A DNA stretch of 64,000 nucleotides from Ruminococcus sp. (GTDB taxonomy: Bacteria; Bacillota; Clostridia; Oscillospirales; Ruminococcaceae), in contig JAEELF010000017.1 of the NCBI GenBank assembly GCA_016288815.1, positions 50,164 to 114,163 of the forward strand, in the 5' to 3' direction. Below the pieces are notes generated by a model, which had not been told where the DNA came from, did no database searches, and saw only the letters and a list, made by a program, of their open reading frames with translations. Position numbers and translations under genes: made by a program. This document shows, in pieces, positions 41,861 through 57,726 of this stretch (position 1 is the first letter of the stretch; every line of letters begins with the position of its first letter).

Positions 41861-44260
41861 TTACTTGGTGAGCTTGGTGAACAGGTGCTGGAGCTTCTTC
41901 ATTCCGAGGGTCAGGTAGCGCATGAACGGCTCAGCGATAATGGAGAAGTTTATGCACAGGAGGATACATCTCGGCGACATTGTCGAGATATCGAAGAACT
42001 CGCTCACGAACACCATGCAGAACGCCAGTCCCACGGCGCAGAACAGCCACAGCCACATCTTGTAGACGTCCATAGGCTTGCTTATCTCCCAGACGATCAT
42101 CAGTCCGACGATACCGAGGAGAATGGTCGAGGCTGTCGCGATATCGGAGGCGTCAACGTTGAAGATATTGCCGAAGTATACCATCGCCGCGACGATGATA
42201 GTGTCGGTGATCCCGGCAGGGAGCGCCTTCAGCAGTATATTCGTTATGAATCTTCCGTTGATGATGTCCTTGTTGGGCATCTGCGACAGGAACAGCGCCG
42301 GCACGCCGATAGTGAACAGGCTTATGAGCGATACCTGCGACGGCAGCAGCGGATACGCTATGCCGAAGTAGATAGACATTATCGAGATGAACAGCGAGAA
42401 GATGTTCTTCACGAGGAACAGGCTTCCCGAGCGCTCGAGGTTGTTGACGACCTTGCGTCCCTCAAGGACGACATCAGGCATCTTAGAGAAGTCGGACTCG
42501 AGCAGCACGAGCTGTGCGACCTGCGCGGCAGCGTCGCTTCCCGAAGCCATAGCCACGGAGCAGTCGGCGTCCTTGAGCGCGAGCACGTCGTTGACGCCGT
42601 CTCCGGTCATCGCGACGGTCTTGCCCGCCTTTTTGAGCGCACGCACGAACAGCCGCTTCTGGTCAGGCGTAACGCGTCCGAAAACGGTATACCGCAGCAC
42701 AGCCTCATTTATCGCGGATTCAGTGGTGAGGGTCGAGGCATCGACGTAGTGCTCGGCGTTCTTTATGCCGGCACGCCTCGCGACCTCGGAAACAGTAACG
42801 GGGTTGTCACCCGAAATGACCTTTATCTCCACGCCCTGCTCAGCAAAATACCGGAAGGTCTCGGGAGCGTTCTCACGTATCGGATTTGACAGGATTATGA
42901 AGCACAGCGGAGTGAGCTTCCCCGTGAGCGCCTTGCCGTCGGGACGTCCGCTGTAGCGCCCGAAAGCGAGCACGCGGTAGCCCTTGCGGCTGTTGGACTC
43001 GATGAGGTTCCTGTGCTCCTCGGAGGGGTCAGTGAGTATGAAATCCGGCGCACCGAGGACATACGAGCCGCTCGCGAGGGTCACGCTGCTGTACTTGAAC
43101 TCAGACGAGAATCCGGTGCTCGCGACGGCAGGCATACCCGACGGTGCCTTGAAGCGGTTCTTCATTGCCTCCATAGTCTGGTTGTCGGCGGACTGCGCGG
43201 ACGCGAAATCGCTGAGGAGAGTATTCAGCGACTCCACAGGATAAGCCGGGTCCGCAGGTATCACCTCGTGGACGTGCATACGGTTCTCGGTGATAGTACC
43301 GGTCTTGTCCACGCAGAGGACATTTACGCGGGCGAGGGTCTCGATACATTTCATGTCGTGAACGAGTACCTTGCTGAACGCGAGTCTCATAGCGCTGACC
43401 GCGAGGGTCGTGCTGGCGATGAGGAACAGTCCCTCGGGTATCATGCCGATTATCGAAGCGACCATCGACTGCACGCTCGCCTTGATAGTGTCATGCGCGA
43501 CGATATACCGCTGATAGAAGAGCGTCCCGCCGATCGGTATGATGATTATTCCGGCGATCTTTACTATCTTGTTGAGTGAGCGTATCATCTCGGACTGCTC
43601 GCCCTTCTTGGACTTTTTCGCCTGAAGCGTGAGCTGCGAGATGTAGGAATCCCTGCCGACCTTCTCGAGCCTTGCGCGGCACGAGCCCGACACGATGAAG
43701 CTGCCAGACATAAGCATATCGCCGGGCTTCTTGGCTATCTCGTCCGACTCACCGGTGAGCAGCGACTCGTTGACCGAAACGCTGCCGTCAATGACTATCG
43801 CGTCGGCACATATCTGGCTCCCGGCGCGGAAAACGACGATATCGTCGAGCACCAGCTTGTCCGAGTGGACCTTGAGCTCCACACCGTCGCGGATAACGTG
43901 AGTGACGGGCGCATTGAGCATTGTGAGCTTGTCGAGGGTGCGCTTGGAGCGCAGCTCCTGCACGATACCGATACAAGCATTGGCAATGATTATCGGCATG
44001 AAGGTGAGGTCGCGGTAAGAGCCCGTGACGATGAGCAGCACCGAGATTATGAGAAAAAGGAAGTTGAAATATGTGCAGAGGTTGCCCTTGAAGATCTCCC
44101 CCACCGTCTTGGAGGGCGAATCCACGGGCTTATTGTCATAGCCCTCACGTCTGCGCTGCTCGACCTGCTGGCTGGTCAGACCCGTATGGCTGTCAGCGCT
44201 TATGCGCTTGGCAGGCACGCGGAAGAGGTCGCCGCGGTCATCGACGAATCCATTTTTCAT
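41861..44260 (-). CDS. Cation-translocating P-type ATPase (HAD-IC)
   Basis: ESLLTGESDEIAKKPGD; LCVDKTGTITENRM; AMTGDGVNDVLALKDADCSVAMASGSDAA. Confidence 0.95.
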   Translation of the reverse strand: MKNGFVDDRGDLFRVPAKRISADSHTGLTSQQVEQRRREGYDNKPVDSPSKTVGEIFKGNLCTYFNFLFLIISVLLIVTGSYRDLTFMPIIIANACIGIVQELRSKRTLDKLTMLNAPVTHVIRDGVELKVHSDKLVLDDIVVFRAGSQICADAIVIDGSVSVNESLLTGESDEIAKKPGDMLMSGSFIVSGSCRARLEKVGRDSYISQLTLQAKKSKKGEQSEMIRSLNKIVKIAGIIIIPIGGTLFYQRYIVAHDTIKASVQSMVASIIGMIPEGLFLIASTTLAVSAMRLAFSKVLVHDMKCIETLARVNVLCVDKTGTITENRMHVHEVIPADPAYPVESLNTLLSDFASAQSADNQTMEAMKNRFKAPSGMPAVASTGFSSEFKYSSVTLASGSYVLGAPDFILTDPSEEHRNLIESNSRKGYRVLAFGRYSGRPDGKALTGKLTPLCFIILSNPIRENAPETFRYFAEQGVEIKVISGDNPVTVSEVARRAGIKNAEHYVDASTLTTESAINEAVLRYTVFGRVTPDQKRLFVRALKKAGKTVAMTGDGVNDVLALKDADCSVAMASGSDAAAQVAQLVLLESDFSKMPDVVLEGRKVVNNLERSGSLFLVKNIFSLFISIMSIYFGIAYPLLPSQVSLISLFTIGVPALFLSQMPNKDIINGRFITNILLKALPAGITDTIIVAAMVYFGNIFNVDASDIATASTILLGIVGLMIVWEISKPMDVYKMWLWLFCAVGLAFCMVFVSEFFDISTMSPRCILLCINFSIIAEPFMRYLTLGMKKLQHLFTKLTK

Positions 44261-44344
44261 ATATCTTTTACCTTTCAGAATAAAAATACACACTTATTAT
44301 ATCATGTCCGCAGACATATTTCAACACTAACTGAAAATTTTTCC

Positions 44345-52374: not shown

Positions 52375-53130
52375 ATGGAGAACGAAAAGAACCTCGGCGG
52401 CTCCGGCGACGTCATCGCCGGCAGGAACCCCGTCATAGAAGCGCTCAAATCGGACGCGCAGCTCGATGTGATCTACATCGACGGAAACGGCGGCAGCCTG
52501 AACGTCATCAGGCGGCTCGCAAATGAGAAGGGCGTCGTTGTCAAGGACGCTCAGGACAAAAAGCTCACCCAGCTCTCTGGCGGAGCTTCTCATCAGGGAG
52601 TAGTTGCGGTCGGCGCGTGCGGAGAGTATGTGTCGGTGGAGGATATCCTCGCAGTGTCGCAGAAAAAGGGCACCAAGCCCTTCATCATAATCTGCGACGA
52701 GATAGAGGACCCGCACAATCTCGGCGCGATAATCCGGACCGCTGAGACCTCCGGTGCAGACGGCGTGATAATCCCCAAGCGCCGCAGTGCGTCGCTGAAT
52801 GCGACGGTATTCAAGACCTCCGCGGGCGCGGCAAGCTACGTCCCCGTCGCGAGAGTTTCCAATCTTGCCGCGTGCATAGACCAGCTCAAGGAGAACGGCG
52901 TGTGGATATACGGCACGGACGCCTCCGGCAGCGAATACACCCAGACCGACCTCACCGGCAGCATGGCGCTCGTCATAGGCTCGGAGGGCTTCGGTATAAG
53001 CAAGCTGATACAGAAAAAATGTGATTTTATGATAAAGCTCCCGATGCTGGGGAAGATAAACTCCCTCAACGCCTCAGTTGCGGCTGGCATCTTCATGTAC
53101 GAAGTGCTCAGGCAGCGCGGGACACACTAA
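52375..53130 (+). CDS. rlmB: 23S rRNA (guanosine-2'-O)-methyltransferase RlmB-like (SpoU family)
   Basis: VIAGRNPVIEALKS; DEIEDPHNLGAIIRTAETSGADGVIIPKRRS; LVIGSEGFGISKLIQKKCD. Confidence 0.95.
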   Translation: MENEKNLGGSGDVIAGRNPVIEALKSDAQLDVIYIDGNGGSLNVIRRLANEKGVVVKDAQDKKLTQLSGGASHQGVVAVGACGEYVSVEDILAVSQKKGTKPFIIICDEIEDPHNLGAIIRTAETSGADGVIIPKRRSASLNATVFKTSAGAASYVPVARVSNLAACIDQLKENGVWIYGTDASGSEYTQTDLTGSMALVIGSEGFGISKLIQKKCDFMIKLPMLGKINSLNASVAAGIFMYEVLRQRGTH

Positions 53131-53144
53131 ACAAGGAGACCACC

Positions 53145-55667
53145 ATGCCGGATCAGAACCTATCTCTGGAGGATATTCTGAACGAGTATTCTCCCGATAC
53201 AACAAATGAACGTCTGCCCGTGGGCAGGGTCACGGCTCAGAAGATACTGAATTCCACTGTCCCCGATCCCGAAAAACCGGAGGCTGCACCCGCAAGACCA
53301 CCCATGTCCCACAGCAAGAATGAGCTTTTCGACAGCTCCCTCCGCAGACCCGACCCCGCCGACGAATTCAAGCCCGCCGATCTTTCGCGCAATAAGGTGT
53401 CGTTCGTCAGCTCAGAGGCGATAACCGAGATCAAGAACACCGGTCCCATACCCGTGACCGATAATACCGTCCCCACCGTCCCGCAGGGCGCCCCGAAGAT
53501 ACGCCGTATGTCGGACTCCACCCGAGCCCGCGAAATGGAGATAATCAAGAGCAATACGCGCCACCGCCGCGGAAAGACCTCGGGCTACACCTACGAGAAG
53601 GAGACCCCCGAGGGCGAGTATATGTACACTCCTCCCGCCTTCAAAAAGAAAAAGCGCTCCCATGCCGCGATATACGCGGAGGCTGAGTCCCCCGAAGGCA
53701 GGAAGCTCACAACGGACATCGTCCCCTCGCCTGCCGCAGTCGAAGCCGCAAAGCCTGTCGAGCCGACCCCGCGTGCAGAGCTCACAAGCATAGACCTCAG
53801 CCAGCGTCCCCGCATGGAAGCCGGCGAGCTCGACGTACATATCACCCAGCAGACCGACGAATACGTCTCTGCCCGCTCAAAGCGGAAGCGCACCAAGCGC
53901 ATGGTCGATTTCAACTACTACGGCGACGTCGAGGACGTCGGGCGCGACATCTACGAGCTGAAAAACACCATTTCCGTGCGTGTGCTGATACTCGCGATGA
54001 CCGCCTTCCTCAGCATATTCATCACCGCCGCGAACCAGCTCGGGCTCCCGCTGCTTAGCATACTCAGCCGCACGAACATCAGGTCCTTCATCTGGATACA
54101 GCTCCTCCTCGGACTGATATCCATGCTGTCCTCCACGGCAGTAATCTCGAAGGGAATGAAGAAGCTGTTCACGCTCCACGCCGACGGCGACTCCATGACC
54201 GCAGTTACGGCGCTGTCGTGCTTCGTCGCGATCATTCCCCTGCTCTTCAGACCGGAACTCGCCTCGCAGCAGTCGGTGCACATCTATATGCCGATAGGCT
54301 GTCTCGCGCTGTTCTTCAACTCAGTCGGCAAGATGCTGATAATCAGGCGTGCCGCACGTAATTTCAGATTCGTCTCGCGCAGCTTCGACCGCCACGGGAT
54401 AGTCTACGTCCGCGACGAGGACAGAGCCGAACGCCTCACCCGCGGAACGCTCGGTGACTTCCCGATACTCGCCTCCATGCGCAAAACGGACTTCCTCACG
54501 GACTTCCTGCGCTACACATACTCCTCGGACATGACCGACGACTATTGCAGCAAGGCGACTCCCCTGTGCCTGCTGCTGTCGGTGCTCATCGCGCTGCTGA
54601 TAACATTTTTCAGCAAGGGCACGCTTGCTACCGCAGATTCCGCAGCATTCGGCTTCTCGATATACAGTATGCTGATATGCGCTACGTCGTGTATCGCGAT
54701 GCCGTTCGTAGTGAATATCCCCCTTGAAGCCGCCGCAGACCGCTCCTTCCAGAACCGAGGGATAATGCTCGGCTACCAGAGCGTGGACGACTTCTACGAC
54801 ACCAACTCCATACTCGTGAACGCAGATTCGCTCTTCCCGGAGGGACACGTCAAGCTGTCGGGGATAAAGGTCTTCTCGAACACCAAGATCGACGAAGCCC
54901 TCCTCGAAGCCGCCAGCCTCACCCACCATGCGGGCAGCATGATGAGGAGGATATTCAGCGACGTCACCGCCGGACGCGAGGACGCCCTCTACCCCATCGA
55001 GAACTTCTCGTTCGAGGAGTCAATGGGACTATGCGGCTGGATAAACAACAAGCGCGTGCTGTTCGGAAACCGCGAGCTCATGACCAGCCACAACATCGAG
55101 GGTATCCCGACCAAGACCAAGGAGAACGAGTTCACCGGCGCCGGTCAGGAGGCGATGTACCTCTCGATCTCGGGCAATCTCGCCGCGATGTTCATAGTAG
55201 AGCTCACCGCCGACTCCGCGGTAAAGAAATGGGCGAAGCGCCTGAGCCGCAACAAGGTCTTCATGATAATCAAGTCAGTTGACCCCTGCATCTCGCTGAG
55301 GAAGCTCAGCACGCTCTTCGGCGTACCGGAGGAGATGATGAGGATACTCCCCAAGAAGCTCCACGACGACTTCGACGAGGAGACAAAGAAGGCAGTCCGC
55401 CTGAGCGCCTCAATGGCTTGCTCCGGCAAGTTCGCATCGCTCGCGCAGCTGATAATCGGCACAAAGACCGTCCATGCCGCCGCGATAGTCGGACTGATCT
55501 TCCAGACCGCCTCGATAATGCTCGGCTTCGGACTGAGCCTGCTTATGATACTCTCGAAGGCGTTCGAGCTGAACTACCTTTATATGTCCGAGACCGCGCT
55601 GATAGTCTACAACCTCTCGTGGGCACTGCTGACGTATTTTGCAGTACGGCTGAAGCGCGTAAAATAG
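53145..55667 (+). CDS. P1-type-ATPase-like membrane protein lacking catalytic motifs
   Basis: Aligns by eye to the P/N-domain of P1-type ATPases (LCGWINNKRVLFGNRELM; STLFGVPEEMMRILPKK), but the DKTGTLTEG position reads NADSLFPEG and no TGES or GDGxND is present; long disordered N-terminus. Confidence 0.7.
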   Translation: MPDQNLSLEDILNEYSPDTTNERLPVGRVTAQKILNSTVPDPEKPEAAPARPPMSHSKNELFDSSLRRPDPADEFKPADLSRNKVSFVSSEAITEIKNTGPIPVTDNTVPTVPQGAPKIRRMSDSTRAREMEIIKSNTRHRRGKTSGYTYEKETPEGEYMYTPPAFKKKKRSHAAIYAEAESPEGRKLTTDIVPSPAAVEAAKPVEPTPRAELTSIDLSQRPRMEAGELDVHITQQTDEYVSARSKRKRTKRMVDFNYYGDVEDVGRDIYELKNTISVRVLILAMTAFLSIFITAANQLGLPLLSILSRTNIRSFIWIQLLLGLISMLSSTAVISKGMKKLFTLHADGDSMTAVTALSCFVAIIPLLFRPELASQQSVHIYMPIGCLALFFNSVGKMLIIRRAARNFRFVSRSFDRHGIVYVRDEDRAERLTRGTLGDFPILASMRKTDFLTDFLRYTYSSDMTDDYCSKATPLCLLLSVLIALLITFFSKGTLATADSAAFGFSIYSMLICATSCIAMPFVVNIPLEAAADRSFQNRGIMLGYQSVDDFYDTNSILVNADSLFPEGHVKLSGIKVFSNTKIDEALLEAASLTHHAGSMMRRIFSDVTAGREDALYPIENFSFEESMGLCGWINNKRVLFGNRELMTSHNIEGIPTKTKENEFTGAGQEAMYLSISGNLAAMFIVELTADSAVKKWAKRLSRNKVFMIIKSVDPCISLRKLSTLFGVPEEMMRILPKKLHDDFDEETKKAVRLSASMACSGKFASLAQLIIGTKTVHAAAIVGLIFQTASIMLGFGLSLLMILSKAFELNYLYMSETALIVYNLSWALLTYFAVRLKRVK

Positions 55668-55726: not shown

Positions 55727-57100
55727 ATGCCAGACAAATACACCGATCATTTCAGAAACACAGACAACGATCAGACCATTCAATTTCCCACTGCCGGGCA
55801 GCCAGCTTCCGTGACTCCCCCGACGAACCAGAAGAGAGCTCCACAACAGTACAGCGGCAGCGCGCAGTATAATGACGGCTACCAGTACGACCCATACGCC
55901 GACTCTCAGAACGCAGTGAACCCCTTCGAGGAAGCTTACCGCGAGGAGCACTACAACCAGCAGCCCCAGTATTCGCAGCAGCAGTACGCTCAGCAGCAGC
56001 AGTACTCACAGCAGCAACAGTACGCTCAGCAGCCGCAATACTCACAGCAGGCGATGTTCGTCCAGCAGCCGGCATATCCCCAGCAGCGCGTGAACGAGTC
56101 CGCCCCGAAGCAAAAGAAAAAGCGCAGGAAGCACAAAAACATCGTCACAAGGATCATCACACGCCTCCTGCTGACGTTGCTGATACTCTTCCTGCTGCTC
56201 TTCGGCATATACTCCTGCACCGCGCTGAGCATAATAAAGAAGCTCGACTACCGCGAGACCGGCGACCGCGACCGCGCAGACAGCGCCCTCCGCAGGAGCT
56301 ACGTCACGAGCGTACTCATCATCGGTACAGACGGACGCTCCGACGACGACACAGGACGCTCCGACACGATGATACTTGTCTCGATAAACAAGCACACCAA
56401 AAAGATCTGCATGACCTCATTCATGCGCGACTGCTACGTCAATATCCCCGGGCACGGCTGGGACAAGCTCAACGCAGCGTATAATTACGGCGGACCCGAG
56501 CTCGTCATGGACACGATCGAGAACAATTTCTACGTCCGCATCGACGACTATGTCTGCATAAACTTCAACTCGTTCGCGTCGATAGTTGACTCCGTCGGCG
56601 GTATCGACATCGAGGTCTCGGACTCCGAGGCGGAGGCGATAAACGTTATCCTCCAGTCCGAGGTGAACGAGCTCATGGGCGACGACAAGATGGACGATAT
56701 GCTGTCGTCCGGCGGAAAGCTCCACCTCAACGGCAAGCAGGCGCTCGCCTACTCGCGTATCAGATACGTCGGAAATGCTGATTTTGAGCGTACTGAGCGT
56801 CAGCGCACGGTCATGGAGAAGATAATCAAGAAGATGCGCTCGTTCAAGCCGACGTACATCAAGAAGCTCACCAACAACGTCATGCCGCAGCTCACAACGA
56901 ACATGAAGACGCTCGACCTCTATCTGCTGTCGCTGAGAGTTCCGTTCATCATGAAGTACGACTTCGTGCAGGTACAGGTGCCCGCAGAGGACACATACTA
57001 CAGCGACAACGTAGAGCTTTACGGCGGTATCCAGAATGTACTGTCAGTAGATTTCGACGCAAACTACGACATAATAAAATCCGAGGTATTCGACGACTGA
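55727..57100 (+). CDS. LytR-CpsA-Psr (LCP) family protein with Gln-rich N-terminus
   Basis: LIIGTDGRSDDDTGRSDTMILVSINKHTKKICMTSFMRDCYVNIPGHGWDKLNAAYNYGG; KLHLNGKQALAYSRIRYVGNADFERTERQRTV. Confidence 0.95.
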   Translation: MPDKYTDHFRNTDNDQTIQFPTAGQPASVTPPTNQKRAPQQYSGSAQYNDGYQYDPYADSQNAVNPFEEAYREEHYNQQPQYSQQQYAQQQQYSQQQQYAQQPQYSQQAMFVQQPAYPQQRVNESAPKQKKKRRKHKNIVTRIITRLLLTLLILFLLLFGIYSCTALSIIKKLDYRETGDRDRADSALRRSYVTSVLIIGTDGRSDDDTGRSDTMILVSINKHTKKICMTSFMRDCYVNIPGHGWDKLNAAYNYGGPELVMDTIENNFYVRIDDYVCINFNSFASIVDSVGGIDIEVSDSEAEAINVILQSEVNELMGDDKMDDMLSSGGKLHLNGKQALAYSRIRYVGNADFERTERQRTVMEKIIKKMRSFKPTYIKKLTNNVMPQLTTNMKTLDLYLLSLRVPFIMKYDFVQVQVPAEDTYYSDNVELYGGIQNVLSVDFDANYDIIKSEVFDD

Positions 57101-57150: not shown

Positions 57151-57726
57151 TCAGTGCGGTGAAGCATATTCATGGCTGACGGTAGACCAGAGCCTGTAGC
57201 TGGGCTGACATTCGCTCGCGCCCATAGCATCCCCGACCCATACCTCAATGGTATTCGGGTTATCCTCTCTGTAACCGATTATCCATTTATTCGCAGGCTT
57301 AGAGCCCCTGTACTTTATCGGGAGCTGAACGCTGCTCGTATTCGTGAACTCCATAGTGTCATTCAGTGCATCAACGAAGTCCTGGCAGGACGGCTCAGAA
57401 GCAGTCCACACGAAATCCTTGTGAGCGTTATTGTGTTTAGCGCCGTCCATTCTGCAAACGACGACGAGGTCATACGTCTCAGAATTCTCAGTAACGCTGA
57501 ACTTCACAGCACTCGCAGAGTAAAAAGAAGAGATCACATTGTCATCAGTATCGTCCGAGAAAGTCTCAGAGACTCTCTGAGAGATATGCTTGGCGTTCGT
57601 TACGTCGTTTTTCTTCTTCGCATTCGCGACATACCCGATGAGCACCGGGACAAGCAGTGCAGCAAGTACGCCGATGATGGCAATGACTATGATCAGTTCA
57701 ATAAGTGTAAAACCCTTTTTTCTCAT
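57151..57726 (-). CDS. Type IV pilin-like (prepilin N-methylation) protein
   Basis: MRKKGFTLIELIIVIAIIGVLAALLVPVLIGYV. Confidence 0.92.
   Translation of the reverse strand: MRKKGFTLIELIIVIAIIGVLAALLVPVLIGYVANAKKKNDVTNAKHISQRVSETFSDDTDDNVISSFYSASAVKFSVTENSETYDLVVVCRMDGAKHNNAHKDFVWTASEPSCQDFVDALNDTMEFTNTSSVQLPIKYRGSKPANKWIIGYREDNPNTIEVWVGDAMGASECQPSYRLWSTVSHEYASPH

Follow-up and report, generated by a model that had tools for sequence, protein, structure and literature searches.

The forward-strand gene at positions 53145-55667 of a 64,000-nucleotide stretch of Ruminococcus sp. DNA (hereafter the window) near-certainly encodes, judging from its sequence, a pseudo-P1B-ATPase. It represents an unnamed, order-specific family, and our comparisons strongly support a P-type relative that has lost catalysis yet remains functional. 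The open reading frame is unbroken over its 840 codons, as originally predicted, and the product is a homologue of P1B (CopA-type) ATPases by sequence, by profile and by a confident AlphaFold model. A single-sequence phmmer query matched LpCopA (3rfu) over residues 480-744, the TM4-P-N region (E=3.5e-14), and the family profile recovered the same pump with E=2.2e-30. The model of residues 246-840 reached a mean pLDDT of 95.2, and its best Foldseek match was LpCopA in the E2P state (4bbj; E=8.7e-20, probability 1.00), with a global TM-score of about 0.55, a value probably explained by the absent A-domain and a differing domain orientation. These phmmer, profile and Foldseek matches uphold the P1-type order of domains that had been claimed, and the structure prediction, run as an attempt at refutation, displayed the P1B fold with eight TM helices and left the claim standing. 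In the models, helices MA, MB, M1 and M2 occupy 53919-54377 (residues 259-411), M3 and M4 occupy 54531-54752 (residues 463-536), and the last two, M5 and M6, occupy 55431-55661 (residues 763-839), all on the plus strand. No Pfam model scored over its cut-off in the 11 family members searched, one HAD match falling below it, and the NCBIfam CopA and heavy-metal ATPase models matched the window protein far below their cut-offs.

LpCopA, a CopA-type (P1B-1) pump, was the best match in both sequence and structure, sharing with the pseudo-ATPase its membrane topology and its P/N-domain fold, as well as the GNRELM-type signature, G628 and D713. The general architecture is also like that of ZntA/CadA-type P1B ATPases, but the profile similarity to these is weaker than to most CopA-type pumps (about 58-77 bits, versus up to 180 bits for the CopA type). 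The scores favour a CopA-like ancestor, which is the best-scoring candidate rather than a proven one. In a tree within P1B, the split between the pseudo members and every active one was fully supported, whereas the sister group and the root were unreliable because of long branches.

The machinery of the pump has been lost throughout the family. At 54819-54845 (residues 559-567), where active CopA has DKTGT(L/I)T, the window protein reads NADSLFPEG, exactly the replacement of DKTGTLTxG that had been proposed, and the family consensus is xxxxLFPxG (F564 in 138/153 members, P565 in 131/153). DKTG was present at this motif in all 12 active CopA proteins and in none of the 153 family members, which were drawn from across the order, so the search for orthologues retaining it did not refute the claim; the KTGT that follows the phosphorylation-position Asp was lost in all 153. 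The reported absence of TGES and GDGxND also proved correct and goes beyond mere mutation, the two motifs having been deleted together with their surroundings. In the alignment with the 12 active CopA proteins, the M2-M3 segment has a median of 78 aa in the family versus 143 aa in CopA, indicating that about 65 aa of the A-domain, including the TGE loop, were deleted family-wide; the remnant at 54378-54530 keeps two strands in the model. Likewise, the stretch between the P-domain LP and M5 measures 50 aa versus 82 aa, so that about 32 aa, including GDGxND, are missing from the P-domain tail (55344-55493, residues 734-783). Both deletions are common to the order and do not represent recent decay. 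Both ATP contacts in the SEHP of the N-domain have gone: the Glu at position 593 is mostly L, T, A, V or I, and the His at position 598 mostly S or G, whereas all 12 CopA proteins have E and H. The CPC metal motif of M4 is lost as well, reading TSCIAMP in the window protein, and its second Cys (position 517) was found in 12/12 CopA proteins and 0/153 family members. Known P-type ATPase chemistry requires the machinery lost here, and the pseudo-ATPase is therefore unable to run the P-type cycle.

Other positions have been retained or newly fixed. The region of the TGD loop does read IIKSVDP (residues 708-714), as had been noted, but the Asp of this loop (D713, 55281-55283) is retained in 148/153 members within a family consensus of TxDPNIT. 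The N-domain (54891-55205, residues 583-687) keeps G628 and G641, and F604, W632, R637, H649 and E660 are conserved in the family yet not in CopA. F683 is conserved in the family too, its absence elsewhere being judged against just two other active pumps. The TM helices and P526 are also kept across the family, and M4 carries this conserved Pro and a part-conserved Cys, which, from the sequences, may allow a ligand to bind within the membrane.

In place of the metal-binding domain of CopA pumps, the protein carries a charged, Pro-rich arm without a CxxC domain (53145-53879, residues 1-245), which is predicted to be disordered (pLDDT mostly 40-55). This agrees with the N-terminal extension of about 270 aa in the original prediction, the arm measuring about 250 aa ahead of the core. 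Near its start lies a conserved short linear motif, S-L-E-D-I-L-N-E-Y (53163-53189, residues 7-15), and the arm begins in most members with S-[VL]-[DE]-[DE]-I-L-x-E. With the start codons of relatives chosen mechanically, a loose form of the motif fell within the first 70 aa in 119/153 members, versus 2.3% of shuffles and 1.8% of other ORFs; in alignment A2, which was built from motif-bearing members, I11 and L12 each reach a conservation of at least 90%. AlphaFold predicted no confident docking of the motif or arm on the core. DNA-pattern searches of the genome for a second protein sharing SxDDILxE, sought as a clue to a partner, returned none that was convincing, and a second motif-bearing ORF, L052:3281-5774, was rejected as an assembly artefact, being an N-filled duplicate of the start of a family gene. 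The arm contains a second predicted helix at 53514-53567 (residues 124-141, STRAREMEIIKSNTRH; pLDDT 66-79), which, going by the model, may be another binding motif.

The family is nearly universal in its order. A match was found in 147 of the 149 genomes of its GTDB family, and the profile used for the order, class and phylum searches (A1, 107 members) matched better than 1e-40 in about 231 of 247 order genomes by our count. We take Ruminococcus relatives to sit in Oscillospirales by GTDB, so this was probably the order searched. No full-length match was obtained in 187 genomes of the class outside the order (best 7e-35), nor in a draw of 147 phylum genomes from beyond the order, of which two were shared with the class draw (best 8e-32); the best outside-order matches are restricted to profile positions of about 246-528, the stretch that real CopA pumps also match. 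Six order genomes of at least 95% completeness (G209, G229, G235, G251, G279 and G360) gave no full-length match, and whether these are real losses or search misses is uncertain because the genome search scores few candidates per genome; the gene may thus be dispensable in some members. In the core, dN/dS (Nei-Gojobori) was 0.017-0.035 in four close Ruminococcus pairs and 0.08-0.43 in some other pairs, where saturation, alignment or relaxed constraint may be responsible. The family is under purifying selection despite the loss of its catalytic residues, and near-universal retention under strong selection makes a non-pumping job probable.

The gene order upstream is equally constant. In the window, rlmB, encoding an SpoU-type rRNA 2'-O-methyltransferase (52375-53130, plus strand; Pfam SpoU_methylase, 1.2e-44), ends 14 nt before the gene, and among the 154 loci compared, which are related rather than independent, rlmB shares the strand and lies directly upstream in 146. 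The gaps centre near 20 nt and are exactly -4 in nine loci; in five of the seven loci without rlmB, it is invisible because the locus breaks off no more than about 200 bases from where the gene begins. The observed gene order suggests that the gene is probably co-expressed with rlmB. Neighbours other than rlmB vary between loci. The LCP (LytR-CpsA-Psr) gene downstream (55727-57100, plus strand; Pfam 1e-42), from which a link to envelope assembly had been proposed, adjoins in only 13/154 loci, all near relatives; LCP is a neighbour locally and no conserved partner, and we do not retain that link. Beside the LCP gene, a type IV pilin-like protein with the N-terminal sequence GFTLIELIIVIAIIGVLAALLVP is encoded on the minus strand at 57151-57726.

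We propose that an ancestral CopA-like pump would have lost its metal-binding domain, TGE loop, phosphorylation motif, GDGxND segment, ATP contacts and CPC site, while its eight-helix membrane core and P/N-domain platform, as the model and the conservation show, were kept and re-optimised. A re-purposed face of the N-domain and the long disordered arm with its SxDDILxE peptide would then recruit at least one cytosolic partner belonging to a housekeeping process. Such a role as a membrane-anchored scaffold or adaptor, acting by way of the arm and the face of the N-domain, seems to us about evenly balanced between right and wrong, and its main rival is a sensor.

Decay hardly deserves consideration. 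Although the catalytic motifs are gone and two relatives have an in-frame stop, the reading as a decaying pseudogene or strain-specific oddity is already refuted by the intact gene in nearly all sampled order genomes and by a dN/dS of about 0.02-0.04 in close pairs, which bears out the initial statement that the gene is not simply decaying. It is also distinctly unlikely that the protein serves an active P-type ATPase of its own cell as a regulatory partner, or pseudo-subunit. Active P-type ATPases occur in all 149 family genomes, which favours this idea, but no ATPase gene recurs among the neighbours of the family gene. The intact P-type ATPase of the window (41861-44293; E1-E2_ATPase, 5.5e-42), which had been offered as an internal contrast, does keep TGES, DKTGT and GDGVND; however, it is encoded on the minus strand and, while sharing the P-type superfamily with the pseudo-ATPase, belongs to the IPEG type (P2/CtpE-like) and not to P1B. 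Its strong orthologues are confined to about a quarter of the genomes of the GTDB family, and a partnership with it was rejected because it is patchy whereas the pseudo-ATPase is near-universal. A partnership with a metal ATPase is contradicted by three reduced genomes that keep the pseudo-ATPase (G068, 0.7 Mb; G088, 0.9 Mb; G103, 1.0 Mb; each at least 94% complete): none of them has a heavy-metal ATPase over the TIGR01525 cut-off, and they hold just one or two other P-type ATPases. The sole P-type ATPases kept in G068 and G088 share 37-38% identity with the IPEG ATPase of the window. Elsewhere in the genome of the window, at G000:C59:20222-22207, lies a P-type ATPase gene interrupted by in-frame TAG and TGA stops, which appears either to be broken or to contain assembly errors.

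More credible, though still on the doubtful side, is a receptor or sensor resembling a transceptor, whose membrane core would bind a ligand (metal, ion or lipid) and signal via the P/N platform and the arm without transport. The eight TM helices and the Pro526/Asn524 region of M4 are conserved family-wide although the transport chemistry is gone, and this favours a sensor because a pure anchor could do without them. Against it, CPC is lost, no set of Cys, His or Met residues was seen to be conserved family-wide in the membrane part, and the gene is kept in the genomes without a heavy-metal ATPase. A non-canonical activity, such as a passive conduit, a lipid scramblase or a HAD-type phosphatase with shifted acidic residues, appears improbable. 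The phosphorylation-position Asp itself is kept in 68/153 members, so that residual non-canonical chemistry is possible in some of them, an acidic residue occupies position 562 in 96/153, and D713 is nearly invariant; but the window protein has Asn at 559, no acidic residue of the former phosphorylation motif is invariant across the family, and the deleted GDGxND segment was the Mg-binding one.

The pseudo-ATPase differs from CopA in lacking the N-terminal metal-binding domain, TGE, DKTGT, GDGxND, CPC and the ATP-contact E/H, and in carrying instead a disordered arm with an SxDDILxE motif. No published pseudo-P-type-ATPase family was found in the open-access library searched, which is weak evidence of absence. 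Pseudoenzymes in general offer a parallel, for example the pseudoproteases CspC and CspA of C. difficile (PMC12880746), which are likewise enzyme relatives kept for signalling after the loss of catalysis, although the fold differs.

Its near-universality in a major lineage of the gut and rumen, its survival in reduced genomes and its lack of a Pfam model together mark the gene as a candidate housekeeping gene. The DKTG motif is the defining mark of P-type ATPases, which are textbook machines, and a family in which the machinery is deleted and the shell is under strong selection order-wide indicates that the P-type scaffold can serve another use. Somewhat more tentatively than we propose the scaffold itself, we suggest that a whole order may have remade an ancestral copper pump as a near-essential, non-transporting membrane hub, its motor deleted, a recruiting arm grown and its expression tied to rlmB. 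If true, bacteria would here provide the first known pseudo-P-type-ATPase to define an order.
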